From the NCBI GenBank assembly GCA_039566865.1, contig CM076947.1:18167501-18231500 (forward strand): a stretch of 64,000 nt of DNA, given 5' to 3'. A program made the translations under genes and the position numbers. Positions 1,161-56,110 of the stretch are shown here, one piece after another (positions within the stretch are counted from its first letter, which is position 1; each line of letters opens with the position of its first letter). The notes below the pieces were generated by a model. That model ran no database searches and was not told the origin of the DNA. It was given only the letters and a program-made list of their open reading frames with translations. The stretch is from Aurelia coerulea. Its lineage: Eukaryota > Cnidaria > Scyphozoa > Semaeostomeae > Ulmaridae.

Positions 1161-1956
1161 GACAATCTCATGAATCTAAAAGAGGATAAATGCCATTTAA
1201 TTTTCGGTGCAAAAGAAAATGAAGTATCCATCAAAATAGGAGGTGCTTGTTTGAAAGAATCTACAGAGGAGAATCTTCTTGGAATAAAATTTAATTGATC
1301 ATTTTCTTTCAAGCAACATGTCAAAACTCTATGTAAGAAAGCCAGCCAGCCAAAAACTTCATACTCTAAACCGAATATCCTGTTACATGGACACAGAAAA
1401 ACTGCAGCAGCTAATGCGTGCTTTCATATTATCCCATTTTAGCTATTGTCCACTTTTTTGGATGTTCTGCGATAGAACCTTGAATCAAAGAATAAATGAC
1501 GTCCACGAGAGGGCTTTGCGCATCGCACAACAAGATTACGAACATGACTTTGGTTTTCTCCTGCAGCAGACTAATTCAGTGCCCATCCATATACGAAAAC
1601 TGCAGTTGCTGATGACTGAGATTTGTAAAACAAAAATAGATCTAAATCCAACTTTTATGAAGGATATTTTCACGCAAAAAAAACACTGGCTAAGAATTAA
1701 GGCATGGGACCGACGCACAGCTTCCAAAAGTACGCACTACGTCCTTTTGAATCGAGACTGTAGCCTTCCTAGGAAATAGAATGTGGCAGTTGCTACCATA
1801 CGAGATTAAAGACTCCAGCACCCTTCCAATTTTTAAAAAGAAAATAAGGTGCTGGAATGGTGGTAAATGCAACTGTAGGCTTTGTAAAACATATGCACCA
1901 CAGTTTGGTTCATAACAGGATAGATATTGAAGTTCCTGTAATTAGAATCATTGTAC

Positions 1957-2112
1957 ATATATTATATTATATTATATTATATTATATTATATTATATTAT
2001 ATTATATTATATTATATTATATTATATTATATTATATCATATCATATTATATTATATCATATCATATTATATCATATTATATTATATTATATTACATTAT
2101 ATTATATATATT
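1957..2112. repeat. (TATAT)n pentanucleotide microsatellite
   Basis: About 150 bp of period-5 AT repeat with a few T-to-C interruptions toward the right. It lies inside the LINE 3' UTR and is absent at the same place in the second LINE copy, so it expanded after insertion. Confidence 0.9.
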
Positions 2113-2208
2113 ATTTCTAGAAAGGTTTCTAAATTATGTAAATAAGTAGGCCTTAATTAGCTATAACTTTAGCTATTGTTTTGCTCAGCCTAATTTGTAA
2201 CTAAATAA

Positions 2209-2304: not shown

Positions 2305-2305
<1 letters not shown>

Positions 2306-2330
2306 GCATTGTCTCAAATTCATATTCCCT

Positions 2331-2640
2331 TGATCATTTGTTCACAATAACACACGATTTTCTGTTCCCAAGTTCATTCTTGAAGGAGAAGCCGTCTGAT
2401 GTCAATTTCGTGTTCCATTGATCATTAGTTCACAATAACACATGTTCCTGAATTCCGGTAGTCCCAAATATCATTATCTCAACTTCGTGTTCCCTTGATC
2501 ATTAGTTCACAACAACACATGTTCCTGCATTCCGGTAGTCCCAAATATCATTATCTCAAATTCGTATTCCCTTGATCATTTGTTCACAATAACACACAAT
2601 TTTATGTCCCAAGATCATTCTTGGAGGAGAAGCCAATTTC
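2331..2640 (+). repeat. Four degenerate ~77-88 bp tandem repeats upstream of the helicase gene
   Basis: The core 'tgatcattwgttcacaayaa' begins at 2331, 2419, 2496 and 2573, so the spacing is 88, 77 and 77 bp. The two middle units also share a 'tccggtagtcccaaatatca' segment; the outer units share 'ggagaagcc' at their ends. The block lies between the LINE tail and the helicase gene. It could be the left end or 5' regulatory region of the helicase-recombinase element. Confidence 0.7.
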
Positions 2641-2717
2641 GTTAGTGATGGTAGGAACCATGTTCCATTGTTCCTCTTTCCTTTGGGAATCATCATAGCT
2701 TTAAAGGGAAGCCAAAC

Positions 2718-5689
2718 ATGTTTGGCTTCTCAGTTGATCGGTTTCTCAATAAAGTCAACATGCTACGAAATCCAGGCGAGCTTTCCTTGCTAAATCGATT
2801 ACCGGCAAAGCGGCTGTCATCGAAGAGGATACGCAATTCACTCAGAGTGAACATTTTGCCTCTGGTGAGTACTACAAAAAGCTTATTTTCGCTTTTGCTA
2901 TTCTTTTAGTCTTTAGTCTGACGATTTGCTGTGGCCAATTTAGCTGTAGCTCCTGGACTGGATTTCTTTTTCAAAGCCTTACATTTCCTTTCATCTTTTT
3001 ATAAAAATAGGTGATGAACAACACTGCTGCTATGAGTTGCCGTGCGATATGGCGGGCAGATGATAGAAACCTTGCGAAAGACCTCATCGTATCCAAACGC
3101 ATGTCCATGGATGATGCACTGGCACAAAAAAAAGGGATCCATTTCTTTATATCTGCACTAACTGGCACGAACACCAATGCTAGAGAATCAAGACAGGGCG
3201 AACAAAATCCGGAAGCGACCGAAAAAGAAGAGCTAACACAAGCTGGGCAGTCGATTGAAGCTACAGAGAACAGCGACAAAGAAATGCTGTCTGACAAGTC
3301 AGAAGCTGAAGATGAAGAAGAGAAACCGCTGATAGTTACCTCATTTTTTAACCCTGGAGTGGCATACTTTGTGGCCTACAGTCCCTTAGAAGACTGCAGC
3401 GTTGAGTCGATAGTACGATTGCTTCACAACGAAGACACCGAAGCAAATGTTAAAAGCATCAACACACATGTGTCATTTGCAGAGGAAGAAAAGGCCACAG
3501 CAAGATTGGCAAAAGAACTTTCCGTGGTTGTGAAAGATCACAAGAACTTTGCTGTGCAACAACTGGCATCTGATTCAGCACGCTTCTGCTATACTAAGAA
3601 AATAGCCTCCATTGCAACTCATTGGACAAGAGATAAAGTGGAACGGGCATTTGAGAATGGTGAGACACCAACCCAAATGGCAAAGAAGTATCAAACACAT
3701 GTGCGGATAGTTGTTGTCAATCCAAATGTATTAGAAGACGTGAGGCGAGCAGCTCTCCAGTTGGACAAAGATGGTCTTCAATTTCGGTTGGTAGAACTTG
3801 TAAAAGAGAATGCAACAGCGCCTATGGTCGCCCAGCCAAGTTCTGACCTATTTATGACGATTGAAAGGCTAAACCGTGCCATGCAGAAATTCCAGCATAT
3901 CCTGTACAAAGGCAGCGTATATGGCATGCCGAAAGCAGCCAGATTTACCTATGTTGAGATGATGACAGTGGAGAAATACCTAAACAAGATGCTTGCAAGT
4001 AAAGTCATGAGGGAAGGTATTGGAAAGCACATGGGAAATCTGATAAAGATGATGTCAACAGATGCATGCGAGATCTTCAAGCAGATGACAATTGATTTCA
4101 ATTTGATTGAGGTTAAGGATGGTATGTTCTTTGACATTCGCAAGCGTAAATTCATCGAATGTCCATTGGGGCCGGAGCAGAAAGGCACCATTTCTCCACG
4201 CATGTTCATAGATTTCGATAGCAAATTGGAAAGTGATGCAAAGTATTTCAAGGAGGGAATCATGAATTCATTTGAGGAGGATCAGGAACGTGCCATGTTT
4301 CTCAACAAATTTTACCAGTGCCTAATGGCACACAAGATGCCCCATAAAATCAGGAAGCTGGTGGTCTTTGGACCAAAAGATTCTGGCAAAACCAGCTGGC
4401 TGAATGTTTTGTTGGGAGTCATCCCTTCAAAAAGGGTAGCAGCAATCACCAGCGAGAAGCAATTTGCTGCGTCTATGATTGACGAGAACACGGAGCTAGT
4501 CTTCATGGATGAATGGTCAGAAAATACCCTAAATTCTGACATGGCAAAAACTGTGCTGCAAGGCGGAATGATGGTGAAGTCAATAAAACACCAATCTCCG
4601 TCAATTGTCGACAACTCCAGTCCCTTCTACATAACAACAAATTGCGTACCACATTTCGGAATCGAGGAGGAGAACGTTCGAAGACGTATCACTTGTTTCG
4701 AAACAGAGTCCTTGCCATCTACTGTAGTCGGGGCAGACAAATGGATGCGCAAAAACTCCATGGCGTGCATTCGCTGGATGGCCAGTGAGATTACGAAGTA
4801 TCGGGACTTCATAGAACCGGAAGAGCTGTGGTACGAGGAACAAATTCAAAAAGAGAGTGAAGATCCCGACTTTGCAAACGGTGGAGGTAAAGACCTCCTC
4901 GATATAAAGACACTAGAAGACCTACAAGAAGCAGATGTGTCATCAGGTGTAAGAATCATTGCTGCTGAAGAGCCGAATTACATCGCTCCGGTATGCTTCA
5001 TTCATCCGGACCTGCAAGCAGACGCAGTGGAAATTTCAAATCAGGCATCAACTGAGCTGGAAGAGGAGGATCGTCTCCTTGGTCTGCTTGACAATTTGCA
5101 AGAAACGTCTGTCACAGACAACAGCAATACAGCAATCCACCAAGTACAGTCAAATTTGTTGCAGCAAACAAATGATTTACCGACGACATCCAATGAGGAA
5201 GTTGCAACAAGGTATGTAAGTAGCTGCCAGTATCAACCATTAAGCGAAGGAGAAGAATCTGATGATGAGATACCATGTGCACAGCCAGAACAAACTGCAG
5301 AGTTAAACAGCTACAGTTTTTACCGGCAAGTAAAATGCCAGCTCGAAAATTCCTTCTTTGAAAAACGTCCCCTCACCTATACACACAAATGTATAGCAAA
5401 AGCAAGACTGGAACGAGAAGAGATGCCATCACACATTGCAGAAAGTTGGCGCCTCGTTATGGGTGAGTTCGGCAACATCAACAGTGAAGAGTTCTTTGAT
5501 AAATATCCCCACATAATCGATGTGATACAGAATCTTCGGGAAAAAATAGGTATACGTTTAGTAAGGAGTAGCCCTGCCAGCCAAGGTGAGCCGGTGTTTG
5601 TTGCTGCAAGAAGATTAAGGGAAACAAAACGCTCGCTAGAAGACATAGCAGAAACCTCCCAGCCAAAGAAGACAAAGCACAAAAATTGA
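2718..5689 (+). CDS. Superfamily 3 (SF3) replicative DNA helicase, virus/replicon type
   Basis: Likely an ATP-dependent hexameric helicase that melts and unwinds DNA at a replication origin. Two exons are proposed: 2718-2864 (49 codons) and 3011-5689. Numbering residues from the codon at 3011, Walker A is GPKDSGKT at 454-461, Walker B is LVFMDE ending at D500-E501, motif C is PFYITTN at 538-544, and the arginine-finger stretch NVRRR is at 555-559. This order and spacing is that of papillomavirus E1, polyomavirus large T and parvovirus NS1 helicases. About 450 residues precede the ATPase, with an acidic linker at about 55-105. The 290-residue tail ends in a basic, nuclear-signal-like KKTKHK. 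I see no HUH nickase motif. The reading frame is intact. The gene is convergent with the tyrosine recombinase gene at 7455-9269, with an iteron-like array between them. The SF3 call is firm; the family is not resolved. Confidence 0.82.
2865..3010 (+). other. Predicted 146-bp GT-AG intron in the helicase gene
   Basis: The donor is CTG|GTGAGT at 2865. The acceptor is a T-rich tract ending TAAAAATAG at 3010. Removing it joins two open phases exactly (147 nt of exon 1 is 49 codons), and it removes the in-frame TAG just before 3011. The codon at 3011 is GTG, so without splicing translation would start at the ATG at 3014. A competing model uses an acceptor at 3059 and a different exon 1 frame (protein-like text around 2770-2864), but that frame has no ATG in view and the acceptor is poor. 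Confidence 0.6.
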
Positions 5690-5723
5690 CTCTTTTGAGT
5701 AAACACCGATGAGTGACAACAAA

Positions 5724-5729
5724 ATTAAA
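5724..5729 (+). terminator. Possible poly(A) signal ATTAAA for the helicase gene
   Basis: ATTAAA lies 35 nt after the helicase stop codon. It is the common variant of AATAAA; no canonical hexamer occurs between the stop and the tandem array. Confidence 0.35.
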
Positions 5730-5825
5730 CATTTGTTGCGTTAAATATACATATGATTGTATTCCGTCCATAATTGTTATGATTGTATTCGCATTTCTGA
5801 AAGAATTCAGAAAAACAGCTGTCTA

Positions 5826-7308
5826 CAGTTCATGATGTGTGAATTCTCTTCCATGTCACATAATTTAACGGCAAAGGCAAATGACCAAGTGTTTTGGCGC
5901 GCAATTTGAAATATATTTGAATACTTTTATGCTGTCCATGAAACCGTTGGCTTTGGTTGGGCTCATTCCAGTTGAAGCCAATGGTGAGCCAATGGTAGAA
6001 CAATAGAGAACAAAAGAAGCCCACTGAGCCCACGGTTTTATGGATGAAAGTTATTTTCCTGCACTTCCTATTAATCAACTGCGGAGGCAGATCATTACGT
6101 CATTTGGCGCTGGTGTCAAAGGCATGCTAAAATGAGCAAGTGTTTTGGCGCGCAATTTGAAATATATTTGAATACTTCTATGCTGTCCATGAAACCGTTG
6201 GCTTTGGTTGGGCTCATTCCAGTTGAAGCCAATGGTGAGCCAATGGTAGAACAATAGAGAACAAAAGAAGCCCACTGAGCCCACGGTTTTATGGATGAAA
6301 GTTATTTTCCTGCACTTCCTATTAATCAACTGCGGAGGCAGATCATTACGTCATTTGGCGCTGGTGTCAAAGGCATGCTAAAATGACCAAGTGTTTTGGC
6401 GCGCAATTTGAAATATTTTTGAATACTTCTATGCTGTCCATGAAACCGTTGGCTTTGGTTGGGCTCATTCCAGTTGAAGCCAATGGTGAGCCAATGGTAG
6501 AACAATAGAGAACAAAAGAAGCCCACTGAGCCCACGGTTTTATGGATGAAAGTTATTTTCCTGCACTTCCTATTAATCAACTGCGGAGGCAGATCATTAC
6601 GTCATTTGGCGCTGGTGTCAAAGGCATGCTAAAATGAGCAAGTGTTTTGGCGCGCAATTTGAAATATTTTTGAATACTTCTATGCTGTCCATGAAACCGT
6701 TGGCTTTGGTTGGGCTCATTCCAGTTGAAGCCAATGGTGAGCCAATGGTAGAACAATAGAGAACAAAAGAAGCCCACTGAGCCCACGGTTTTATGGATGA
6801 AAGTTATTTTCCTGCACTTCCTATTAATCAACTGCGGAGGCAGATCATTACGTCATTTGGCGCTGGTGTCAAAGGCATGCTAAAATGAGCAAGTGTTTTG
6901 GCGCGCAATTTGAAATATTTTTGAATACTTCTATGCTGTCCATGAAACCGTTGGCTTTGGTTGGGCTCATTCCAGTTGAAGCCAATGGTGAGCCAATGGT
7001 AGAACAATAGAGAACAAAAGAAGCCCACTGAGCCCACGGTTTTATGGATGAAAGTTATTTTCCTGCACTTCCTATTAATCAACTGCGGAGGCAGATCATT
7101 ACGTCATTTGGCGCTGGTGTCAAAGGCATGCTAAAATGACCAAGTGTTTTGGCGCGCAATTTGAAATATTTTTGAATACTTCTATGCTGTCCATGAAACC
7201 GTTGGCTTTGGTTGGGCTCATTCCAGTTGAAGCCAATGGTGAGCCAATGGTAGAACAATAGAGAACAAAAGAAGCCCACTGAGCCCACGGTTTTATGGAT
7301 GAAAGTAA
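5826..7308 (+). repeat. Array A: six ~251-bp tandem units, iteron-like
   Basis: Units begin with 'aactgcggaggcagatcatt' at 6077, 6328, 6579, 6830 and 7081 (251-bp period), preceded by a unit with a diverged left end. Units are almost identical and differ at a few positions such as gagcaag/gaccaag and atatattt/atattttt. In the unit at 6077 there are paired direct repeats GCCAATGG (6228 and 6239) and GCCCAC (6270 and 6279), each pair separated by TGA. A TGAGCC core occurs three times (inverted at 6211-6216, direct at 6236 and 6276). There is a GCATGC palindrome at 6122. Short open frames within each unit on the minus strand are by-products of the repeat. The array is homologous and inverted to array B at 9524-10962. 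Confidence 0.92.
6095..6152 (+). promoter_or_regulatory. CRE-like and E2F-like sites in each array A unit (example unit)
   Basis: In this unit a bZIP/CRE-like TTACGTCA (6095-6102) is followed by TTTGGCGC (6103-6110) and TTTTGGCGCG (6143-6152), both matching the E2F consensus TTTSGCGC. CCAAT boxes lie at 6229 and 6240. Array B keeps the CRE core (TGACGT), the second E2F site and a CCAAT box although the rest has diverged. Function is inferred from motif match only. Confidence 0.4.
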
Positions 7309-7454
7309 TTTTAGAACTTCAAAAGAATTCTCCCTGCAAAATCACATCGGAACAGGGCATTACAAATAAACAAGAGTCAAATTTGAAATTGCTTTCAATT
7401 CATCAATGTTCAACTTTTAAAATTTCCAATTGTCAACAGCAATTATTTAAATAA

Positions 7455-9269
7455 TTAGAAAAGATTTCGTCCAGTATCTCTTTTATATAAGTCCTGAAAC
7501 TGGGTTGTCCTTGCTCTTCGCAATAGGGCGTTTCTTGTACGTCCTTCCGCAAAATTCAAGCTTGTATCTGAAAGAATCTTTACCCATTTTCCAAGACCAT
7601 GCTTCTTGATTCCTTTTAGTAACTGATTATCCTCGAATGCACTAAACAAGACCATGCAGTCGGTAGCTGATTTAGCACCTGACTTTGGTATTTTAGGATT
7701 TCTCGACCTCGTGCTGCTGCAGATGCCTTGTGCATCCACACCATTCTGCTCAGCCTCTTTGTCCAAAAGTGCGGTCTGTGCAGTGTGGATGTCTTCCGTG
7801 TCCAAATTTCCCTCTGTCTCGTAGCTTGTGGCCAAAGTTTCCAAAGATTTATCCATGCTCCTTCCTTGCTCACCACGCAGTTTCTTTAGGCAGTCGTTAC
7901 CTCTCTCAGCCACGTCGCGAGAGCGCTTTTTCCGGTAATGGATCTTTGCAACGTTTGATGTGTGTTTCTGGTCCTGGGATACGATGTCTCGTTCTTCTGC
8001 ATCCAAAACATCAGTGCTCTCTGTTTCTATGATTTGTCTGTAGCGTGTTGGGTGCACATACTTTCCAATAGCGTCATGAACGAGAATTCCCATAGCTTGG
8101 TCTAATTTGAGGAACTGCCCACCGCTTCTGTTTACAAGAAGAAAGTCGCAATGGGGATTTAGGTGTGGCCGGACGTACTCAATGTAGTCGCTCAGTATTT
8201 TCATGCTTATGTCATCTATGACAAGGGAGTCAAACGTATACTTCCCGGCTGTTTTGAACGTCTTCTGATCTACAAAACCTCCATTTGCGGCAGCTGATGT
8301 AACCATGGATACTGTGAGGAACTGATACGTCATGGGCCGGGTTCCTTTCACCCTCAAGAAAAGATACGTTGCAATGAATCTCGTTGCAAATGTCAATTGT
8401 GACGGGGTAATATTGATCGATCCCTCCTTGCAGTCTTTCAATAGGTTCTTGTACCGTTCAATGTGAAATGGTATCACTTGTTGCAGTTCCGTCATCGTCG
8501 CCCAGTGCCCTTTTCTCCGCAAGGTATCTATATCAAGCTCTTCACTCCAGCGAACTCTCATTTTCTTTGCAACACATTTACGAGCTCTTTTTAGCAGCGC
8601 CACTGCCACACTGAAATTATTGAGGCTATTGCTGTCGATACCTTTGAATTTCCGATATTCTACCATTTCCAGTAAAGCGTTTATGTAGCTGACATGTCCG
8701 GCGTGTCCGATACTTTCATCTTTCGTTATGTGATCTAAGAAGTTAGCAAGAAATTCCATTGAGCCTAGATAATAGTCAATTTTTTCACTTGTAAGTCTAT
8801 CGGTAGGATTCTCCGACAGACAATAACGTAGGAATTTTAGGGCACGTGATGATATCTGATTTGCATGCGCCTCGGTGCGTCCTCCACCACTGCAACTACA
8901 CATCCAGCGTATGAAATGCTCAGAAAATGCAATATCCTCACAGACAGCTCCATTACTGCTCAACTGACTTGAGTTGCCATTTACCAGACTGTCTTCCTGG
9001 TCTTTGCCTTTTTCACAAACCACATCACTTGGGTATTTATCGAAGTAATAGAACCAAGGGTGGATTGTCTGAATATGTTTTCTGCATCCTCTCTCGCTAC
9101 GGAATCCTTCATGATCACACTCGCTGACTGGGCAAGGACACACCCCATCCTTATCCTTTTTCAAGTGCAATCGCCTCTTTATCTTTGCAGCGCCTTGTAA
9201 GGCTTTCCAGTTCTTAGTCTTGTCGGCCATCTGCCATCGCTGATATTTAGGCACAACTAGGTCATTCAT
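7455..9269 (-). CDS. Tyrosine recombinase with N-terminal C2H2 finger and C-terminal Myb/telobox domain
   Basis: 604 residues, intact. It probably cuts and rejoins DNA through a phosphotyrosine, moving the element into and out of the genome. A C2H2 finger C46-x4-C51-x13-H65-x4-H70 lies in a basic N-terminus. The catalytic domain spans about 270-450. Candidate catalytic residues are R311 in KGTRPMTY, K343, H406-x-x-R409 in HPTR, H436, and the nucleophile Y445 in KIHYRKK. The nine-residue H-to-Y spacing equals that of Cre and lambda integrase. A Myb/SANT helix set, LFSAFEDNQLLKGIKKHG to about 592, ends the protein and resembles telobox DNA-binding domains. YR plus a DNA-binding tail recalls Crypton transposons, but Cryptons have no helicase gene. 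The gene lies between two inverted tandem arrays and faces the SF3 helicase gene. Start: the first ATG is in weak context and very close to a TATA box, so M14 (MADKTKNW) may be the true start. Confidence 0.78.
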   Translation of the reverse strand: MNDLVVPKYQRWQMADKTKNWKALQGAAKIKRRLHLKKDKDGVCPCPVSECDHEGFRSERGCRKHIQTIHPWFYYFDKYPSDVVCEKGKDQEDSLVNGNSSQLSSNGAVCEDIAFSEHFIRWMCSCSGGGRTEAHANQISSRALKFLRYCLSENPTDRLTSEKIDYYLGSMEFLANFLDHITKDESIGHAGHVSYINALLEMVEYRKFKGIDSNSLNNFSVAVALLKRARKCVAKKMRVRWSEELDIDTLRRKGHWATMTELQQVIPFHIERYKNLLKDCKEGSINITPSQLTFATRFIATYLFLRVKGTRPMTYQFLTVSMVTSAAANGGFVDQKTFKTAGKYTFDSLVIDDISMKILSDYIEYVRPHLNPHCDFLLVNRSGGQFLKLDQAMGILVHDAIGKYVHPTRYRQIIETESTDVLDAEERDIVSQDQKHTSNVAKIHYRKKRSRDVAERGNDCLKKLRGEQGRSMDKSLETLATSYETEGNLDTEDIHTAQTALLDKEAEQNGVDAQGICSSTRSRNPKIPKSGAKSATDCMVLFSAFEDNQLLKGIKKHGLGKWVKILSDTSLNFAEGRTRNALLRRARTTQFQDLYKRDTGRNLF

Positions 9270-9284
9270 GGATCAAACCCATTC

Positions 9285-9293
9285 CTTTTATAC
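9285..9293 (-). promoter_or_regulatory. TATA box TATAAAAGG upstream of the recombinase gene
   Basis: On the minus strand TATAAAAGG begins 24 nt before the first ATG at 9269. Initiation about 30 nt downstream would fall at or just past that ATG, which favours the second in-frame ATG at about 9230. Array B starts some 230 bp further upstream and could act as its enhancer. Confidence 0.5.
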
Positions 9294-9523
9294 ATTATTC
9301 AGCCCCGAGGGGTACAGAATATTAGAACAGCGTGAATGTTGGAACTTGAGAACGAATCTGATTCCTTCCCACGAGAGTAGCTTGTTGAAAAACAAAGACT
9401 CCCTTGAGCATACTACAAATACTACTTCAAAAGTATCTCATCTCCCGTGGGTATTGAATGGGAATGCTTCCAATCAGACATGACCATTCACACGATCGAA
9501 AACATTCTCTTATAAAATACTTT

Positions 9524-10962
9524 GGCATTTTAGCATGCCTAAGTGACGTATGATTTGCCTCCGCAGTTAATACGAAATGTAGGAATGCTACCCCGTAACT
9601 AAAATTACTTTTATCCCTACAACCGTGGGCTCAGTGGGCTTCTTTTGTTCTCTATTGTTCTACCATTGGCTCACTGTTGGCTTCCATTGTAATGAGCCCA
9701 TGCAAAGCCAACCAGTTCATGGACTGTATACATGTGTTCAAAATGATTTGAAACTACGCGCCAAAATACTTTGTCATTTTAGCATGCCTAAGTGACGTAT
9801 GATTTGCCTCCGCAGTTCATACGAAATGTAGGAATGCTACCCCGTAACTAAAATTACTTTTATCCCTACAACCGTGGGCTCAGTGGGCTTCTTTTGTTCT
9901 CTATTGTTCTACCATTGGCTCACTGTTGGCTTCCATTGTAATGAGCCCATGCAAAGCCAACCAGTTCATGGACTGTATACATGTGTTCAAAATGATTTGA
10001 AACTACGCGCCAAAATACTTTGTCATTTTAGCATGCCTAAGTGACGTATGATTTGCCTCCGCAGTTCATACGAAATGTAGGAATGCTACCCCGTATCTAA
10101 AATTACTTTTATCCCTACAACCGTGGGCTCAGTGGGCTTCTTTTGTTCTCTATTGTTCTACCATTGGCTCACTGTTGGCTTCCATTGTAATGAGCCCATG
10201 CAAAGCCAACCAGTTCATGGACTGTATACATGTGTTCAAAATGATTTGAAACTACGCGCCAAAATACTTTGTCATTTTAGCATGCCTAAGTGACGTATGA
10301 TTTGCCTCCGCAGTTCATACGAAATGTAGGAATGCTACCCCGTATCTAAAATTACTTTTATCCCTACAACCGTGGGCTCAGTGGGCTTCTTTTGTTCTCT
10401 ATTGTTCTACCATTGGCTCACTGTTGGCTTCCATTGTAATGAGCCCATGCAAAGCCAACCAGTTCATGGACTGTATACATGTGTTCAAAATGATTTGAAA
10501 CTACGCGCCAAAATACTTTGTCATTTTAGCATGCCTAAGTGACGTATGATTTGCCTCCGCAGTTCATACGAAATGTAGGAATGCTACCCCGTATCTAAAA
10601 TTACTTTTATCCCTACAACCGTGGGCTCAGTGGGCTTCTTTTGTTCTCTATTGTTCTACCATTGGCTCACTGTTGGCTTCCATTGTAATGAGCCCATGCA
10701 AAGCCAACCAGTTCATGGACTGTATACATGTGTTCAAAATGATTTGAAACTACGCGCCAAAGTACTTCGTCATTTTAGCATGCCTAAGTGACGTATGATT
10801 TGCCTCCGCAGTTCATACGAAATGTAGGAATGCTACCCCGTATCTAAAATTACTTTCATCCTTACAACCGTGGGCTCAGTGGGCTTCTTTTGTTCTCTAT
10901 TGTTCTACCATTGGCTCACTGTTGGCTTCCATTGTAATGAGCCCACGCAAAGCCAACGATTG
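9524..10962 (-). repeat. Array B: ~249-bp tandem units, inverted homologue of array A
   Basis: The marker 'gcctccgcagtt' recurs at 9557, 9806, 10055, 10304, 10553 and 10802, a strict 249-bp period. Read on the minus strand each unit follows array A in order: GGAGGCAAATCATACGTCA, the GCATGCTAAAATGA block, TTTTGGCGCG, and three TGAGCC cores in the same orientations. The shared segment around 'gaacaatagagaacaaaag' is the most conserved part. Units within B are almost identical but clearly diverged from A, so each array has been homogenised separately. The array lies upstream of the recombinase gene. Confidence 0.92.
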
Positions 10963-12330
<1,368 letters not shown>

Positions 12331-15788: not shown

Positions 15789-16133
15789 CAGGGACCGCGC
15801 AGCCATTGGGCTAGGGGGGGCTAAAGCCTCCCCCCACTTTTTCAAAGATAGGTCTGAAAATTTTCACAAATATGGAATTTGCAATATTTTCATACACGCA
15901 ACTGCTGCATTTGCTGAGAGACCTTCTCAATGGCTAGATGTCTCAAAACCTGACTTCATTCAACTATGAAGCAAGCAAATGTCAACAATCTAGCAATATT
16001 GAACTTTCATAAACAACGAGCAAACACAATGTCCCCCTTGGACATTGCTAACGATTTCGTTAAAAATTAGAATTTTTTGCTCGCTTCGCTCCCCGTTCAG
16101 CCCCCCCATTTTGAAACCGCTGCGCGGTCCCTG
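15789..16133. mobile_element. MITE with perfect 15-bp terminal inverted repeats
   Basis: CAGGGACCGCGCAGC at 15789-15803 is exactly inverted at 16119-16133. The ends are followed by G/C-run hairpins typical of small hAT-related elements. The right end abuts the truncated BEL/Pao pol reading frame, so BEL sequence is lost or displaced on the left. No clear target duplication. Confidence 0.75.
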
Positions 16134-17310
16134 TCTGGACCTCTGAAAGGTAAGACCTTGAATTCTACTGAAAATGTCAATGTGAATTTTGTACCTTTGT
16201 CTTCATTGCCTGCAAAGACTGACAAACAGAGGATTGATGAGGAAGTAAACAAATTGTGGGATTTGGATTCCATTGGAATTAGGCCAGAGAATGCAGTGCA
16301 TGTGCAGGTCATTGACAACATATATTTCACAGGAAAAAGGTATTCTGTGGGTCTTCCATGGAAAGCTGGACACAAAGCTCTTCCTACAAACTATAAGAAC
16401 AGCCTGATGAGATTGAAGAGTTTGGGTAAGAAACTCAGAAAATATCGTCAAACTCTTGATAAATATAATGATATACATACTGAGCAGGTTGCCTCTGGAA
16501 TAATAGAGCAGGTGACAGAGCTGGAACCAGCCGAGAGGACATTTTATCTGCCACACATGGCAGTGATAAGAGCTGAAGCAGAAACTACCAAGGTGAGAAT
16601 TGTTTATGACGCATCTTGTAGAGATAGGAAAACAGGAACCTCACTCAATGATTGTCTCCATGTGGGGCCACCTTTGACACCCCTCATATTTGACATACTT
16701 CTTCGTTTCAGAGAACACAGAATTGCATTGGTAGGAGACATTGAGAAGGCTTTTTTAAACATTGAGGTTCACCCTGTTGATCGCGATTGCTTGAGATTTT
16801 TGTGGTTTAAAGATTGTAGGTCAGAAGATTCTGAGATTATTGTGCTGCGATTCCGTAGGGTGGCATTTAGAGTAAATTCCTCGCCTTTCCTATTAAACGC
16901 AGTACTCCGCGACCATATTGAGACATACAAGGCATCTGACCCTGAATTTACATCTACATTGATTGAATCTTTCTATGTTGATGATTTCGTTTCAGGTTGT
17001 AGGAATGCAGATGAAGCCTTTACCCTGTACCAAAAAGCAAGTGACAGAATGAGAGAAGGGGGATTTAGGCTCAGGAAATGGAAAACAAATGATACTGAGT
17101 TAGCTGAAAAGATTGAAAAAAGTGAGAGTGAGAAAGTAGAAATGAAACAGAAACAAGAATCAGATGAGAGCTCTTATGCAAAGGAAACATTAGGCCAAAA
17201 TAACAACACAGAGGGAAAATGTAAGATCCTAGGAATGGCTTCGGATAACAAAGAGGACACATTAGAGTTTGATCTTACCAAGGTAACAAAAGATGCAAAC
17301 ACAGAAAGAC
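16134..17310 (+). pseudogene. pol: BEL/Pao LTR retrotransposon pol, reverse transcriptase part
   Basis: An open frame of about 390 codons carries the BEL/Pao reverse transcriptase. It has a spacer with EEVNKLWDLDSIGI, then VRIVYDASCRD, LVGDIEKAFLNI with the first catalytic Asp (about 16735), and FYVDDF at about 16972 as the catalytic box (YVDD). The frame is open on the left up to the MITE at 15789-16133, so gag and protease are missing. On the right it runs into an inserted DNA element after LEFDLTKVTKDAN. The RT-to-RNase H connection is absent; pol resumes at about 20360. The element is dead. The BEL/Pao assignment rests on the RT text and on the BEL-type integrase further on. Confidence 0.85.
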
Positions 17311-17311
17311 C

Positions 17312-19313
17312 CAGGAGCGGATCCAGGGAAAAATCTGACTATAGCTGAAGGTGCTATGCGCCGAAGGCGCATCGGCGTAGGGGAGGTATGCGCCGAAGGC
17401 GCAGGGTATTGGGGGTCCGGGGGCGAAGCCCCCGGAAAAATTTTTGGGACCACGCCCTTCTGCATAAGGGGAAACGCCCTTATTTAAAGAGAAACCTCGT
17501 GGAAACGCCCTAAATAGTACTTATCCAAAAAGAATCTAAAGTCTCCTTAAAATGAGAATATCTCGTAAAACCCAATACGGTGTCTTAAATATCATAAAAA
17601 TATTTAAGACACCATACATGACTGACAAGGACTCATCACCAACCAGAGCAAAAGGTTTAAAGTGCCTTTCCAGAGAATCAAGACTCCAGGACGCTTGCTC
17701 TTATCAGACAAAATGTTTAATGTACTACACGTTTTTTATAAGAAACTATCTATTATATAAAAAACCAGCACTAATATGGCCAACATTTTGAGAAACTCCA
17801 GCACTATTGTCTGAGAAGTCCTGAGAAACATTTGTGAGTTAAATGCAAGAATGTTATGCCAAATATGTTGTTGAACTTTTAATATGAACTAAACGTACAT
17901 TTTTCGAGCAACATCTCAAAGTGAAGTTATAGCTGATGGCAATCAAGAATCAAACGTATCAAAAAGAGAGAAATAGGGTGGGTGGAGGATGGGTGTTTAC
18001 TATTTCCTCGTCAAGTTGTGTTAGGCCATGCATTCAATCATTCACACTGATCTAGGTTCCGTCCTTTAGCTTCTCTCCCGTCAAAGTCTCGATCTGATAT
18101 AAAACTTGCCTGCAACGAAACTGCCCCCAGTGTTCATTTGCAAAGCTTTGAATCAAATTCGTCCAGTTCCCCAACATATTCCCATTCAAAACTACCGTGG
18201 TCTAATGACAAAAGAGCCTTTCAGAATATTTGTTCACTCCATCACCCTTACAATGGTTTAATCAAGATCAGTGACAATGTAGAGAATACGGCCTATTAGA
18301 CCAAAGCATTGAACATAATAGCCCATTGCATGAGGATCCCCGCAGAACAATATCCCTTTGTTAGGGTCCTTTTGTCACAATTCTGTATGAAATTCATCCC
18401 AAGAGAAAACGTGACACATACATATTTCATTGACTCGATGGTAAAAATTGTTCAATGCTGCTCTGAGTTGATGAAGTGAAAGAATGAGGAGGAAAGAAAA
18501 TTAGCAATTGGAAAGCTGTGTAGCATACCGAATAGGGCAAAAGTTTTGAGGAGCCATTTCCAACTGCATCTTTGGGAACTGCAGTGCAGAAAGATCACAT
18601 TCCCTGGGCTGGGCTTAGGCCTAGCCTACGAACGTCTTGAGGACTCCTGCTTGCAAGCAAAATAGAATCCTTACTTCTCTATTCGGCTTTTCTCTCTTCC
18701 TCGGACAGCGTTGCTCTATGCTTCACTATTTCTTCAATCTCAAGTAAGGTTTCGTTCATTTTGAAAGGCTATTAGCAACGACGGCTTCTCACAGCTTCAT
18801 GTTGACCTCAAGTTCTCGAATAAAACAAAGTGCAGCTCTGGAGGCCAAAGTCCACTGTTGCTCCCGCCAAAATCGAGCATCAGTCAACTCTAACTCTGAT
18901 TGGCTATCACCCACATTTTCAAATTTCACTGTTGCTCCCGCTAAAATTTGCCTACAGAAGACCATAGCTGATTGAGCGTGGGATCGCAGTAATCTGCGGA
19001 CCACTATTGCTCGGAATGTCAGCCTTTGTTAAACCTCCTATCGACGGACAGAACAAAGGTAAATATCAAGCAAAGTGGTCTACCAAATATGCGTTCTCCT
19101 TCGCAGTAGTTCTTAACATCAAAGCTTAGTATACGGGGTATAAAGCCTAGTTTTAACTGCTGGAATCGACGTATTGCGACTTTAACGATGAGATGAATTC
19201 ATGGAAGGAAAATCTCTAAATTGAACAACTATATACACAAAAAATTATTACTATTGTTTTGAAAATCTGACTGTTGCTTGAGCATCAATAGCAATAGTCT
19301 GGATCCGCCTCTG
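17312..19313. mobile_element. DNA transposon insertion (hAT-like ends) within the BEL/Pao element
   Basis: CAGGAGCGGATCCAG at the left is inverted, with two mismatches, as CTGGATCCGCCTCTG ending at 19313. The left subterminal part has tandem 'gcgccgaaggcgc' hairpins and a GGGGGCGAAGCCCCC block shared with the element at 12500-13208. No transposase and no obvious 8-bp duplication; the interior may contain further insertions. Confidence 0.55.
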
Positions 19314-19540
19314 GCCAAGTAGTGGCGCAAAAATCCCCGTTTTTGGCCCACTAGTTTGGGCCCTTTTTGTTCAACTTATTTTGTCGTTTTACCCCTTTAG
19401 TGAAATTATGAGAGACATGGTCACTCTGCGTTAGATGCACCTTTCTGTTTGAGCATTCTAGACGTATTAGATAGAACTTGCTGTACAATTTATAGAAGGG
19501 TCATCCTTGGGTCTTCCATTCTCCAACACTGGCAAAAAGT

Positions 19541-19620
19541 GCTGTGGCGCAGTAGTGCAGTCAGAACATTCAGGTGGACAGGGCTCGATCCCACGTAGGG
19601 CCCCACCACTTGAACGTCAT
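19541..19620 (+). repeat. tRNA-derived SINE fragment
   Basis: Pol III-type internal promoter: an A-box-like TGGCGCAGTAGTG and a B-box-like GGCTCGATCCC about 35 bp later, then 'ccccaccact'. It matches the SINE at 26700-26850. Confidence 0.6.
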
Positions 19621-20360
19621 GACAAGGAAGGGTTGCATATTGGATTAGCTCTTCTTTGTTTCTACAATCACAGAGCTTGGCTTTGTGCTAAGAACCGTAA
19701 CTTCACCTTCTAACTACTCAGTTCTGGGCTGTTCTAAATAACGAAATGGGGAGTTCTAAAACCTCAGTTTTTGGATATTTTACTCGAAAGTTTGCGGTCC
19801 TCAAAAAATTTCCCAACATTCTCTGCAATGCTTGTTTGAGAAAATTTCGCACCATGAACCAAATTCTTTTCTCTAAATGCTGATAATGCAATGCTAATGG
19901 TATTTCACACAGTGCGGAGCCCATTCAAGTGTGGGCAAGGTTGGCAGGGGAGCGCTCTCCTCAGGTCTCACAAAGATAGCTCTTTGAATTCTACAAAATC
20001 CTTTAAGAAAGTAGCACAGGGGCAATAAGCAATTACAAACTTCTCCCTAACCGATTTGAAGCATATCTAAGTAACAGAAACCAAAATTTTTCGCTTGCAT
20101 GTTTACAAAGTTTTCCGTTTTCTACCAATGAGTTTCACTTCTATTTCATTGGATCACTTCTATGAAAGATGTTTGAGGAAATCCTCATCAAGAATTTATA
20201 AATGAAATGAAATTTGCCAGTTCAAAATTTTCCGTATGATGATCCCTGAATAGCACATGGTCACGCTGTATGCTGTATTCGTATATTTGCACCATCTTTT
20301 TTGCCGCGGAAAATGGGCCCTAGTGGTTAGTTTGGCCCACTAGTCAAATTTCCTTAAAAG
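19621..20360. other. No gene recognised
   Basis: Sequence between the SINE and the resumption of BEL/Pao pol. 'ggcccactagt' occurs near both 19348 and 20333 and may mark the ends of another insertion (about 19320-20345). Confidence 0.4.
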
Positions 20361-20363
20361 ATG

Positions 20364-20998
20364 CCCTGGCTTGTAGACACTGTATGCAAAGCCATGAGTT
20401 CTCAAATCAAAATTGATTGTGTTAGATATTGGCTAGACAGTAAAACTGCCCTGTACTGGGTATATAACAATGGCGAATGGAAACAGTGGGTACAGTTCAG
20501 AATGGCAGAGATTTTGAGATTATCAAAGAAGGAAGAGTGGGGACATGTAGGGGGGAAGGAAAACCCTGCAGATTTAGGCTCCCGGAGAGTTACCGCTATT
20601 CAGCTGAAGAATAGTGATCTGTGGTGGAAAGGTCCACAATGGCTTAGGAAAGGCAAACATTGTTGGCCCAAAGGATTAATCCTAGACAATTCAGAAGAAG
20701 TGAAGAGTGAGAAAAAGAAAGTGAATGTAATGATTGCAGTGACAGAAAGACCTGTAGGAGTGAGCCAAGTGATAGACATCAACAAGTACAGCACACTAAG
20801 AAAGCTTCTCAGAGTTACAGCTTGGGTGATGAGATTTGTAGAGAATGTGAAGGCTAGAAGGGATGGAAAGAACTTGAATGGGGAAAGTTTGAATGCAAAA
20901 GAAATCATGAGTGCTGAAAAATTGTGGATTAAGGATGTTCAGTCAACACTGACACAAAATTCATCATTCAAAAGACACAGAATCATCTTGGAATTGTG
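20364..20998 (+). pseudogene. pol: BEL/Pao pol, RNase H and linker part
   Basis: The frame carries YWLDSKTALYWV followed by GGKENPADLGSRR, the C-terminal half of the BEL/Pao RNase H region. A basic linker leads to the integrase. It ends at a TGA (20996-20998), directly followed by the integrase zinc-finger frame, so this stop is a decay mutation. The sequence joining it to the RT part at 17310 is missing. Confidence 0.8.
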
Positions 20999-22365
20999 AA
21001 AATGGATGGTACTCTGGTATGTAAGGGAAGGTTAGAAAGATCAGATTTGAGTTCAGAGGCCAAATACCCCATCTATCTCCCAAAAGATCATAGGTTTACA
21101 GAACTTGTCGTGGAAGATTGCCATCTTAGAGTTTTTCATTGCATGGTCAAAGCTACCTTGGCAGAACTCAGATCCAGATTCTGGGTCTCCAAGGGTAGAC
21201 AGTTCGTGAAAAAAGTACTAAAATGTTGTTTTATTTGCAGGAAACTCGAAGGAAAACCATTTCATTCACCACCAACAGCAGCAATGCCAGAATACAGAGT
21301 GACGCAAGCTGCACCGTTCAGCAATGTTGGCATTGATTTCGCCGGACCACTGTATGTCAAAGAGAAACGTGGTGAGTTAAAGAAAGTTTACATTTGTTTG
21401 TTTGTTTGTTGTATGACACGAGCTTTACACAAGATCTTTCAGCGCCTACATTTCTAAATTGTTTGCGCCAGCTTTGTGCTAGGAGAGGTACACCAGGTAT
21501 TATCAATTCTGATAATGCAAAGACTTTTAAGTCAAGTTCCAAGCTTTTGAAGAAGTTCTTTAAAGATCAGAGTGTGAAAGATTTCCTTGATTCAAGAAGA
21601 CTGCAATGGAAGTTCAACATAGAGTTGAGTCCGTGGCAAGGAGGCCATTCCGAACGTATGGTAAGAAGTGTAAAAAGGTGTTTGAAGAAAGTTCTTGGCA
21701 ATGCCAGAATTTCCTTTGACGAGCTTAACACCGTATTATCTGAAGTTGAATGCATTTTAAACTCACGGCCACTTTCGAACATGTCGGATGAGGCAGATGG
21801 AGAAGTTTTGACTCCATCTCACTTGTTAGTTGGACGTAGATTGTTGACTTTGCCTACAGGAGTAGAAACTAATTTGAAACTTGATGAGTCTGATAATCAG
21901 TATGCTATTTCCAAACGTTTCTTGCACCTAAAGTGATTGTTGAGTCATTTTTGGAATAGGTGGAGACGTGAGTATCTTAATGATTTGAGAGAGACTCACA
22001 AATTGAGCAACAACAAATCAGTTGACATCAATCCAGGAGATGTTGTTTTGGTACATGGAGATAGCGCAAAGAGAGCACAATGGAAAGTTGCTATTGTTGA
22101 AGATCTGATCAGAGGAAAAGACAATGAGGTACGCGGTGCACGAATTCGCAAAGCTGGAAAGGGTAAGAATGAAATTATGAATCGCCCTGTACAGAAATTG
22201 ATTCCTTTAAAGTGTGCAGTAAGAGATGGTCAGAAAAGAAAGAATGGAGAGGAGAGTAAAAAGAGAGATGAGGAAATGGTGGAGGATTTGCCTGTGCGCA
22301 AGCGTCCCGAGAGGGCGGCTGCTAAGGATGCGCGTCTTAAGACCCGGTTCATGCTTGACTCCTAG
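20999..22365 (+). pseudogene. pol: BEL/Pao pol, integrase and C-terminal part
   Basis: The DDE integrase domain is present in pieces. First comes an HHCC-type finger (CHLRVFH ... CCFICRK) and the first catalytic Asp in NVGIDFAGP (about 21330). A frameshift lies near 21410-21430. Then come the second Asp in INSDNAK (about 21508), the Glu in GGHSERMVRS (about 21646), and the BEL-type ILNSRPLS and LTPSHLLVGR. A stop at 21934-21936 splits off the C-terminus (WNRWRREYL, then the SH3-like NPGDVVLVHGD). The frame ends at 22365, twenty bases before the 3' LTR. Confidence 0.85.
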
Positions 22366-31770: not shown

Positions 31771-32784
31771 GAATTGATAAGGACTGATTTTGAGGACTAT
31801 AAGGATTGATTTTGTTAATGAAAACTCAGTGGGATTGCTTTTGTTGATTGTAATTAAGATTGTTATTTTCTGTTATGTTTTACCAACATGAATTTCCAGG
31901 GGAGCAGTGGATTGTTTAAAGTTTAGGAGGGAAGCAAGATTACTCATTTTACTTAAAACTGAGGTTGCCTTTCCCTTTCAGCAAAATATCAGAGAGTTGT
32001 TAGACAAATGCATGCAATTTCGAATGTCCGGAATCCCCCTATTTCCAGCGACTGCGAATGAGACCATTGAATTTTGATGAACATTGCTTGAAAAACCATA
32101 ACGGAGCATACCAAAGGCTTTTTCCAAACAAACATGCTCATGGTCTGATAACGAGCGACATGCTTAGAAATGAGCAAATCAGTTTACCCTGCTTTTGCTA
32201 TGATTTAAACTGAACCAAAGCAAGATTATAGATTACCCAGAATCAACGCTTTGGGGAATTTAACATTGTCTTAAATCGTCATACTGCTTGACCTCCATTT
32301 TAGTCCAGGATAGCGCTCGGCCTAATGAAAATTATAGGTAATTCAAATCAATGCGTTGGAGAATTTAATATTGTCTCAAATGGCAACGGTCCTACTCTGA
32401 TCGTCTTAAATGAACATAAATGATTTAAAGGAACTTCTACCCCCAATTGGATACAAGAATGGGGCTTGGCCAATGACTGTTGACTTACTTTAATACATAG
32501 GGGTAACATTTGGGACATCTTAAATGACGTTTGTCCCACCTTGATCGTCTTAAATCAATGGAGATGGTTTGACGGGATCATTAACTTGAATTTGAAACAA
32601 GAATGCGGTTTGGCCGATGACTGTTGAATTACTCTAACATCGAGGGGTAACTTTGGGGGGGGGGGCGTCTTGAATGGTGACTGTCCCACCTTAATCGTCT
32701 TAAATGACCGGAAATGCTTTTATTACAATGTTTTGACGCATTTGGTCAAGAAATCAAGTTTGGCCACGGCTATCTTTAAAACAG

Positions 32785-33140
32785 GGAACGGGGAACGGGG
32801 AACGGGGAACTTTAAAATGGGGAACTTTAAAACGGGGAACTTTAAAACAGGGAACGGGGAACGGGGAACGGGGAACTTTAAAACGGGGAACTTTAAAACA
32901 GGGAACGGGGAACGGGGAACTTTAAAATGGGGAACTTTAAAACGGGGAACGGGGAACGGGGAACTTTAAAATGGGGAACTTTAAAACGGGGAACGGGGAA
33001 CGGGGAACAGAGAACTTTAAAATGGGGAACTTTAAAACGGGGAACTTTAAAACAGGGAAAGGGGAACGTTAAAATGGGGAGCTTTAAAACGGGGAACTTT
33101 AAAATGGGGAACGGGGAACTTTAAAACGGGGAACATTGGG
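32785..33140 (+). repeat. GGGGAAC(TTTAAAA) minisatellite, left arm
   Basis: Alternating 'ggggaac' and 'ggggaactttaaaac' units. Open frames rich in G, N, F, K and T are by-products. A further short block in the same orientation is at 33405-33535. Confidence 0.9.
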
Positions 33141-33540
33141 AATTACCATAGTTATGTACCTTTTCTTCGTGGCACAGACATACATATATGTTTATAGGAA
33201 ACTAAGAATTTCGGCCAGTACTGGAAGTTTCTTAAAATTATCAGATTTTTAATACTCGGGAGTTTCATACGAGTTTCTTTGGGGTTCCATAACAATCTTC
33301 ATGTTCACCACCTGTGCCCATGAATATTCATACGTTTCAAAACAGAGTCATTGAAGTCTTTCCAATGTTTAGACTTCAATCAGGTACCTTTCAAGTGGCT
33401 ATCTTTAAAATGGGGAACTTTAAAACAGGGAACGGGGAACTTTAAAACGGGGAACTTTAAATTGGGGAACTTTAAAACGGGGAACAGGGAACTTTAAAAT
33501 GGGGAACTTTCAAACGGGGAACGGGGAACGGGACGTTTTT

Positions 33541-34080
33541 CTTACAAGAAACTGCCTATTTTCTATAAGAATCTCAATTCTCGGATCACCAAAAATCAAG
33601 AAACTCCACTACTGGGAAAAAGGAAATCCTTGACATCTTTTTGTTTTATTTTCACTTGTTTCCTGTTTGACATTACTCAGAAGGTCTTGGATAAATAATT
33701 ATAAATTAAATGAAATGAAAGCAAGAAAAAGACTCTAGATTATTGGACAATTTTATCTGATGCTATGAAACTGAACAAAACTCTGAACGGAACTAGCTTC
33801 TAATAAAAACAAAGTAAACAACAGATAATTGTTGAATGTTTGAATGTATGTAGCTATTGAATGGTTCTTGAAATTATCAAATTTTGAGTACTCTACTTTA
33901 AGATTTTCCTATGTTTAGACATTACTCAAGCACCTTCTGAGTAATTTCAACAGGAAACAAGTGAAAATAAAACAAAAAGATGTCAAGGATTTCCTTTTTC
34001 CCAATAGTGGAGTTTCTTAATTTTTGGTGATCCGAGAGTTGAGATTCTTATAGAAAATAGGCAGTTTCTTGTAATAAAAT
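33541..34080. repeat. Inverted repeat between the minisatellite arms
   Basis: About 150 bp at 33541-33690 ('aagaaactgcctattttcta', 'ccttgacatctttttgtttt') is mirrored at 33930-34080. Related sequence occurs at 50580-51100, so this is a dispersed foldback family. Confidence 0.75.
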
Positions 34081-34164
34081 ACGTGTGAATTCAAATATAA
34101 ATACCACAATAAGGATACCTTGCTCGTTTCAAATCTGAGGATGGTGCGTTCAGGCAAAGAAGCC

Positions 34165-34497
34165 CAAGTTCCCCATTTTAAAGTTCCCCACCTTAAATTA
34201 CCCCGTTTTAAAGGTCCCTGTTTTAAAGTTCCCCGTTTTAAAGTTCCCCATTTTAAAGTTCCCCGTTTTAAAGTTCCCCATTCCCCATTTTAAAGTTCCC
34301 CGTTTTAAAGCTCCCCATTTTAACGTTCCCCGTTCCCCTTTCCCTGTTTTAAAGTTCCCCGTTTTAAAGTTCCCCATTTTAAAGTTCCCTGTTCCCCGTT
34401 CCCCGTTCCCCGTTCCCCGTTCCCCGTTCCCCGTTCCCTGTTTTAAAGTTCCCCGTTTTAAAGTTCCCCATTTTAAAGTTCCCCGTTCCCCGTTCCC
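34165..34497 (-). repeat. GGGGAAC minisatellite, right (inverted) arm
   Basis: The same units as 32785-33140 but on the other strand ('gttccccgttttaaagttcc'), so the two blocks form a palindrome centred near 33.8 kb. Confidence 0.9.
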
Positions 34498-55057: not shown

Positions 55058-56110
55058 GTAATAATAATAATAATAATAATAACGTTGAAACGTTTGGCTA
55101 CACAAGCCTTCACACTGTTTAACGTTTGGCTACACAAGCCTTGACACTTTTTAACGTTTGGCTACACAAGCCTTGACACTTTTTAACGTTTGGCCACACA
55201 GGCCTTGACACTTTTTAACGTTTGGCCACACAGGCCTTGACACTTTTGGCTACACAAGCCTTAACACTTTGAAACGTTAGGCTACACAAGCCTTAAAACG
55301 TTTGGCCACACAGGCCTTGACACTTTTGGCTAAACAAGCCTTGACACTTTGAAACGTTTGGCCACACAGGCCTTGACACTTTTGGCTACACAAGCCTTGA
55401 CACTTGTTAACGTTTGGCCACACAGGCCTTGACACTTTTTAACGTCTGGCCACACAGGCCTTGACACCTTTGGCTACACAAGCCTTGACACTTTGAAACG
55501 TTAGGCTACACAAGCCTTGAAACGTTTGGCCACACAGGCCTTGACACTTTTGGCTACACAAGCCTTGACACTTTGAAACGTTTGGCCCAAAAAATCCTTA
55601 ACACTTTGAAACGTTTGGCCTAAAAAGCCTTAACACTTTTAAACGTTTGGCCTAAAAAGCCTTAACACTAGAAACGTTTGGCCCAAAAAGCCTTAACACT
55701 TTGAAAACGTTTGGCCTGAAAGCCTTAACACTTTGAAACGTTTGGTCTAAAAAAGCCTTAACACTTTGAAACGCTTGGTCTAAAAAGCCCTCACACTTCG
55801 AAACGCTCGGCCTAAAGCACATATGTCACATTAGCCATTGGTTAATACAACAAACAAGTTTTGAGTGGAATTCCATTGTCTCGTGAATTTTCCTTTCTGT
55901 TTCATGAATTTTCATTGCAATGAAAATTCAGCCTCGATCCTGTGCTTTGTAATAAACAAGAGAGAGAAAAGTATTGCATGAACCAATCAGCTTCATGACA
56001 TGCGCTCTCTAACAAGCCTTTACACTTCGAAACGCTTGGCTCAACTCGCCTTAACACTTTGAAACGTTTCTGGCTTTCACCCACCAGGGTACTAACACGT
56101 TTGGCTTTAA
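54540..56110. repeat. Hairpin minisatellite (GGCT...AGCC units, ~30-36 bp)
   Basis: Dozens of units of the form 'aacgtttggctacacaagcc' followed by 'ttgacacttt'. Each unit holds a short inverted repeat. In the best-ordered block (55096-55565) ten units have GGCT...AGCC and seven have GGCC...GGCC, none mixed. Flanking units have longer loops ('ggctctcacccacgggatca'). AT microsatellites, (TA)n near 54825-54860 and (AAT)n at 55017-55082, interrupt the left part. Confidence 0.9.

Follow-up and report, generated by a model that had tools for sequence, protein, structure and literature searches.

The window analysed here, 64,000 nucleotides of the moon jelly Aurelia coerulea (GCA_039566865.1, contig CM076947.1, positions 18,167,501 to 18,231,500), contains a compact element in which a superfamily 3 (SF3) helicase gene and a tyrosine recombinase (YR) gene lie between precisely defined ends. 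Each gene occurs once in the window. The element is bordered on both sides by ATG repeats and recurs elsewhere in the genome, and we interpret it below as a probable two-gene DNA transposon. From left to right it consists of subterminal repeats, the SF3 gene (+), a tandem array, the YR gene (−), a second, inverted array and a right subterminal region. The features are as follows, with LINE denoting a long interspersed nuclear element:

2209–2304, + strand: left flanking target tract, (ATG)32, 96 bp, which is the 3′ tail of a LINE
2305–11423, no strand assigned: whole element, 9119 bp
2307–2610, + strand: left subterminal repeats, four imperfect copies spaced by 88, 77 and 77
2718–2864, + strand: SF3 gene, exon 1, 49 codons, joined in frame to exon 2
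2865–3010, + strand: SF3 gene, predicted intron, 146 nt, GT...AG (GTGAGT...ATAG)
3011–5689, + strand: SF3 gene, exon 2, open frame of 892 codons (PPV_E1_C, E = 9.4e-5; PHROG DNA primase, E = 2.3e-6)
3839–4840, + strand: SF3 helicase domain, residues 277–610 of the exon 2 frame
5879–7312, + strand: array 1, 5.7 copies of a 251-bp unit, six spaced-site modules on the + strand, between the SF3 and YR genes
7455–9269, − strand: YR gene, 604 amino acids, convergent with the SF3 gene
7488–7658, − strand: TRF-type Myb domain of YR, residues 538–594
7833–8960, − strand: YR core, residues 104–479, including Arg311, Lys339, His406, Arg409, His436 and Tyr445
9060–9134, − strand: N-terminal Cys/His finger of YR (Cys46, Cys51, His65, His70), conserved in homologues
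9514–10957, − strand: array 2, 5.8 copies of a 249-bp unit, inverted relative to array 1, six modules on the − strand
10958–11423, + strand: right subterminal region and right end
11424–12095, + strand: right flanking target tract, (TGA/ATG)n, 672 bp

The SF3 gene has a single open frame at 3011–5689, and a start at 2718 requires removal of the predicted intron. In a second family of the element (family 2, described below), the SF3 gene carries a comparable exon that ends at the same position and is followed by GTAAGC, which makes the spliced form, 2718–2864 joined to 3011–5689, a credible prediction. The protein has an AAA+ fold and matches the family profile, and it features a Walker A motif, an acidic Walker B motif, a sensor asparagine and an arginine finger. 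Among 31 homologues, Gly459 and Lys460 are invariant (31/31 each), and Asp500 (27/31), Glu501 (26/31), Asn544 (28/31), Arg558 (26/31) and Arg559 (25/31) are highly conserved, several of the misses being gaps; we presume the roles of these residues from the order of the motifs. The top match in a fold search was the SaPI5 primase-helicase, with D5-type helicases also among the first rows, at ~10% identity; the best 50 matches are all proteins that we take to be SF3-type helicases. A papillomavirus or parvovirus insertion, suggested by the E1-like profile, was rejected on the basis of these first matches. Neither a single-sequence search of the PDB with the SF3 or YR protein nor a profile search of the PDB with SF3 returned anything useful. 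In IMG/VR, the patterns used gave 86 matches for SF3 and seven for YR, none of which was confirmed as a relative.

The YR protein displays the core-binding and catalytic fold of tyrosine recombinases and carries the R-K-H-R-H-Y set in the correct order. These residues, presumed to be catalytic from motif order, are retained in nearly all of the 119 homologues listed (Arg311, Lys339 and Arg409 in 118 each, His406 in 115, His436 and Tyr445 in 119). The finger is equally well preserved, with Cys46 and His70 in 119/119 and Cys51 and His65 in 118/119. Both fold and profile identify the C-terminal domain as TRF-like: the profile search against the PDB matched only the Myb domains of TRF, CHD and similar proteins. 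The YR homologues (P0001–P0120) include large clusters in animal-like contigs, and their precomputed Pfam domains are of the Myb type only, leaving the recombinase core unannotated. When roughly 8000 best candidates were scored for each protein, 756 relatives of YR and 32 of SF3 were found at E ≤ 1e-3.

Within 2305–11423, a scan for open reading frames of at least 100 codons, shorter frames being outside its scope, returned none beyond SF3, YR and frames antisense to them. No major or minor capsid protein and no packaging ATPase is among these frames. The original prediction, made from the sequence of the window, described an intact SF3 gene (2718–5689) and an intact YR gene (9269–7455) that converge on an iteron-like array and are accompanied by no capsid-like frame. 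All of this agrees with our analysis, given the intron for the SF3 start, and the array has an inverted relative beyond the YR gene.

To define the element we compared its copies in the Aurelia coerulea genome (574 Mb, 294 contigs). The search gave at least 50 SF3 matches; of 20 that fell outside our numbered loci, 15 are further pieces of places already named, and five, at four other places, were left out. Eleven loci form family 1: C5 (the window), C14 (two units), C18, C1 (two), C2, C21 (two), C9 and C3. In all eleven, both genes are present at least as remnants, in the order SF3 then convergent YR. A left end could be located in eight loci and a right end in seven, always at the identical base. 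The junction sequence is invariably ATG|AGCATTGT on the left and GATAATGT|TGATGA on the right. The left end was not found in C14 unit A or in the second loci of C21 and C1; the right end was not found in C14 unit B, C2, the second C21 locus or C3, where for C2 and C3 the stretch compared was perhaps too short. As judged from these copies, SF3 and YR have moved jointly, in a single 9.1 kb unit whose ends are fixed; its boundaries of 2305 and 11423 replace the limits of 2331 and 10962 first proposed for it. The same comparison answers the concern, voiced with that proposal, that SF3 might never accompany this YR or that the two might have separate boundaries: outer boundaries are shared, and the pairing extends to family 2, at the single locus of that family in which both genes are open. 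Two further properties of the ends were tried and dropped. Their inward sequences, CATTGTC and CATTATC, do not qualify as a terminal inverted repeat (35.5% of 20000 random pairs match equally), and the 42 7-mers shared by the two subterminal regions do not exceed random windows (control mean 31.6, 95% point 46).

Each of the 15 junctions is immediately next to ATG repeats, which in some cases are imperfect and in one extend over just ten bases. For comparison, ATG runs of at least five cover 36 bases (two runs) in 93822 bases of other sequence, a baseline taken from seven of the 11 stretches (C14, the first C21 locus, the second C1 locus and C3 were left out); at the first C21 and second C1 loci, ATG-rich sequence extends past the unit. 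Beyond the tracts, the flanks (up to 600 bp) match between loci in just two cases, the window and C1 over 94 bp (78%, a LINE-like tail) and C1 and C9 over 26 bp. Compared across the copies, the junctions show that the unit inserts into (ATG)n microsatellites. TGATGA can be read at both junctions, the target itself being a repeat. At C14, two partial units lie head to tail, 801 bp apart, with a spacer that is 95% ATG; in the alignment, ~350 bp are missing from the start of unit A and ~370 bp from the end of unit B. Unit B is nearly identical to the window copy (0.07% divergence in SF3, 0.23% in YR) and unit A is not (1.2% and 0.6%), which indicates separate insertions, the second element having joined the ATG tract of an older one. 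By this reading of the alignment, elements do insert next to older copies already present in a tract. The second C1 locus (L046, L047) may be another such pair in decayed form: a right end and ATG repeats precede the SF3 remnant there, so that this end belongs to another partial unit.

The copies are little diverged. The 892-codon SF3 frame is open in three loci including the window, and a YR frame of 604–605 codons in six. Relative to the window copy, divergence is 0.07–2.1% in the SF3 block (six loci; five of the six comparable copies at no more than 1.2%, the sixth at 2.1%) and 0.14–1.1% in the YR block (six loci). Family 1 thus appears to have been active recently. A LINE occurs twice in the window (1162–2206 and 52267–51376, copies 84–89% identical), both times with an (ATG)n tail; the second copy, traced over 52267–51353, likewise terminates in ATG repeats. 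Such tails may serve as a supply of target sites.

The two arrays are related but distinct. Their units are 76.6% identical over 265 columns, and a 54-bp block that contains most sites of the module is fully identical in both; at ~23% divergence, the arrays are not exchanging sequence freely. The size of the arrays varies among family-1 copies, unsplit ones having 3.7 to 8.7 units and some in C1, C2 and C21 being split or cut. The module, GGGCT-AGCC-AGCC-ACAATAG-AGCCC-AGCCC, is present in both families, with the AGCC sites at +17/+28/+59/+68 after GGGCT in one and at +17–18/+28–29/+59–60/+67–68 in the other. In the window the module pattern occurs at 12 places, all inside the arrays, six in forward and six in reverse orientation; single-base shuffling of the window, to a total of 3.2 Mb, yields none. 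It was found at eight places in family-2 loci (one in L014, three in L015, two each in L016 and L051) and was absent from L017–L020, L022, L023 and L048. Compared over their full length, repeat units from the two families show only a weak alignment (score 26, against a 95% point of 23 and a maximum of 31 for shuffled sequence). The spacing points to a selected, conserved array of protein-binding sites. One box, GAACAATRG, which was chosen post hoc, occurs 15 times inside the element (12 in the arrays) and three times outside.

Family 2 shares 35–43% protein identity with family 1 and retains its layout, intron position and module of spaced sites. Both genes are open at one locus, L015, which continues into L051. 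In ~7.8 kb it encloses an SF3 gene whose 856-codon frame matches that of the window at 35% identity in tblastn, and a YR gene, convergent with it, whose frame has 538 codons and is 43% identical; inverted repeats, 91% identical over 357 columns, lie between SF3 and YR and past the YR start. A left end, AACCGTAGGCG, is common to L014, L015 and L016 and is preceded by unrelated flanks; L018 lacks it. A ~23-bp minisatellite is found on both sides of the L015 element (908–1048, and 8840–9005 in joined L015 and L051), hinting that family 2, too, may target tandem repeats. We do not claim this minisatellite as the family-2 target, given that L014 and L016 have none on the left. In the L021 region (L048), SF3 and YR are both decayed and lie on the same strand; positions 5220–5683 and 7125–7839 of L048 hold a decayed further lineage, with SF3 ~59% identical in one stretch and YR fragments nearby. 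Loci L022–L029 form a multi-copy SF3 group at 30–31% identity with frames of 353–575 codons, L023–L029 being closely alike; this group may represent a separate replicating element that has some other partner.

The presence of helicase and recombinase in one unit, together with the location of its copies in ATG repeats, suggests an animal transposon that could copy itself as a free circle. Our preferred interpretation, to which we assign a probability of about 0.7, is a two-gene DNA transposon resembling an integrative plasmid, in which YR catalyses both the excision of a circle from ATG repeats and its integration into them, and SF3 starts replication of the circle. YR would cut within a short core, approximately TGATGA, common to both ends and the target, releasing the circle and later integrating it at another ATG tract. 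The SF3 protein would load on the DNA and, together with polymerases of the host, initiate circle replication; the most likely sites for initiator binding are the spaced AGCC/GGGCT sites of the inverted arrays. If the circle replicates before it reintegrates, the copy number would rise, an increase that a conservative recombinase would not produce by itself. To our knowledge, the mechanism by which eukaryotic YR transposons increase in copy number is not settled. The head-to-tail pair at C14 is compatible with a circular intermediate; we infer the circles, their replication and the identity of the array-binding protein.

Several observations weigh against this interpretation. The predicted SF3 structure is poor (mean pLDDT, the predicted local distance difference test score, 56.5). 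For YR, Foldseek on its own is weak (best E 0.012, none at 0.001), and Phage_integrase is absent from the Pfam families matched at E ≤ 1 by 23 members, so the family is divergent and its class rests on the fold. The module pattern was derived after both families had been inspected; the position of its ACAATAG box differs between them (+41 in family 1, +51/52 in family 2), and the family-2 relatives L018 and L019 lack the full module. The C3 copy has an open YR frame and an SF3 gene reduced to a 26-residue match. Among the divergent SF3 loci L014–L021, YR was seen in two of eight (L015 and the L021 region); flanks of ~1.5 kb showed none in the other six (L014, L016–L020), nor in any of the eight more distant loci L022–L029. 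In a related annotation, the best SF3 and YR matches differ in scaffold-style name (Seg5616.1 versus Seg165.8). Finally, the pooled ratios of nonsynonymous to synonymous change (dN/dS), 0.40 for SF3 (three copies) and 0.78 for YR (ten pairs from five copies, a sixth having been dropped for its length difference), come from too few changes to show selection.

The C3 copy and the excess of YR over SF3 relatives would fit a YR transposon that carries SF3 as cargo or for another purpose, such as regulation or defence, its copy number rising by movement while host DNA replicates and not by replication of its own; moreover, replication driven by SF3 is itself something that we infer. We nevertheless consider this unlikely: SF3 helicases are replication proteins in the settings where they are known, the pairing and its cis arrays persist in a family at 35–43% identity, and the C3 copy could be mobilized in trans. 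Even less probable is a viral remnant: a Polinton-like or other virus that, stripped of its capsid genes, persists as a transposon. Polinton-like viruses (PLVs) are reported from stony corals (PMC12220804), some virophages and PLVs possess YR and SF3 genes (PMC4642659), and microsatellites are the insertion sites of endogenous nimaviruses that carry YR genes (PMC10871703), but the ends of the Aurelia element are identical wherever found and enclose just two genes, the family-2 locus holds the same two in ~7.8 kb, and IMG/VR yielded no relative of either protein at the patterns used. A virus may still stand far back in the ancestry of the element. A chance neighbourhood, or one element nested in another, can be put aside as highly improbable. 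The inverted arrays around YR could be former terminal repeats of a YR-only element within an SF3 element; however, their edges are asymmetrical, the ends found are the outer ends, and family 2 repeats the layout. Chance pairing is refuted because all 11 family-1 copies carry both genes or their remnants.

A further alternative concerns the arrays only and is compatible with the two-gene transposon: they may bind the recombinase, through its TRF-type Myb domain or its finger, as arm sites or for autoregulation, and not act as origins. We hold this to be somewhat less likely than an initiator-binding role, yet by analogy with TRF the Myb domain is a serious competitor for array binding. GGGTTA, to which TRF proteins bind at telomeres, differs from the array motif GGGCTA/GGGCTC at one or two positions, and in each family the YR gene has an array on either side. 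On the other hand, the 3.6 kb between the left end and array 1 is a long distance for arm sites, and a spacing of roughly one and three helical turns between sites, next to an ACAATAG box, is also reminiscent of the origins used by SF3 initiators.

Elsewhere in the window, 16071–22365 and 63645–61805 contain fragmentary reverse transcriptase and integrase frames that look retrotransposon-like by eye; the statement in the original prediction that almost every other mobile gene is broken holds at this level of inspection, made without a profile search. At 32774–34487, tandem arrays of AACGGGGAACTTTAA-type units face each other, oppositely oriented, and a minisatellite of ~730 bp with 24–32 bp units (GCCTTGACACTTTG...) lies at 55085–55816.

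The element points to a recombinase aimed at ATG repeats. It supplies the two enzymes along with ends known to the base, a defined target and candidate origins, so that each step, from excision through replication to integration, is open to separate testing. It also bears on how small SF3-helicase DNA viruses relate to plasmids and transposons. The odds seem to us evenly balanced that this is a new class of animal transposon: a self-replicating plasmid that integrates into microsatellites and brings along an SF3 initiator and a YR of its own as well as inverted origins with multiple sites. On this view, such elements may be widespread in cnidarians, and DNA viruses with SF3 helicases could plausibly have arisen from them, or they from such viruses, without a capsid on the side of the element. 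We recognized no capsid-free eukaryotic element with SF3 and YR among the literature matches listed, a set with most subscription papers, bioRxiv preprints and Repbase outside its scope, so that earlier naming is possible. The original claim that the pairing is undescribed stands to this extent for capsid-free elements and fails for virophages and PLVs, some of which carry YR and SF3 genes alongside capsid genes (PMC4642659).

Cryptons, known from fungi, oomycetes and animals, likewise move by means of a tyrosine recombinase. The account in PMC3212892 proposes circular excision and integration, gives no terminal inverted repeats and describes animal Cryptons as lacking a C-terminal domain; the word helicase is absent from its main text. 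The Aurelia element differs in its SF3 gene, finger, TRF-type Myb domain and inverted arrays. If Cryptons are YR elements without a replication gene, it is not one of them, because an SF3 gene or remnant lies within the same ends at all 11 loci. Virophages and PLVs resemble it in that some pair YR with SF3 and integrate into eukaryotic genomes (PMC4642659, PMC12220804). They have capsid genes, and PLVs span 14–40 kb, in contrast to two genes in 9.1 kb; with no capsid or packaging gene visible, the element is not a PLV. Endogenous nimaviruses share specific microsatellite insertion and a YR typically with a C2H2 domain (PMC10871703, with TAACC/GGTTA as the target). They are large virus genomes whose target differs from ATG repeats. 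The yeast 2-micron plasmid combines a YR with inverted repeats on a replicating circle, but has no SF3 gene and is not integrated, and the arrays of the Aurelia element are ~23% apart. SaPI-type phage satellites, which are bacterial and packaged by a helper phage, possess a YR integrase, an iteron-like origin and the SF3-type primase-helicase that is the top fold match (~8–9% identity over the aligned fold). By analogy, the Aurelia element would work like an integrative plasmid or a phage satellite.

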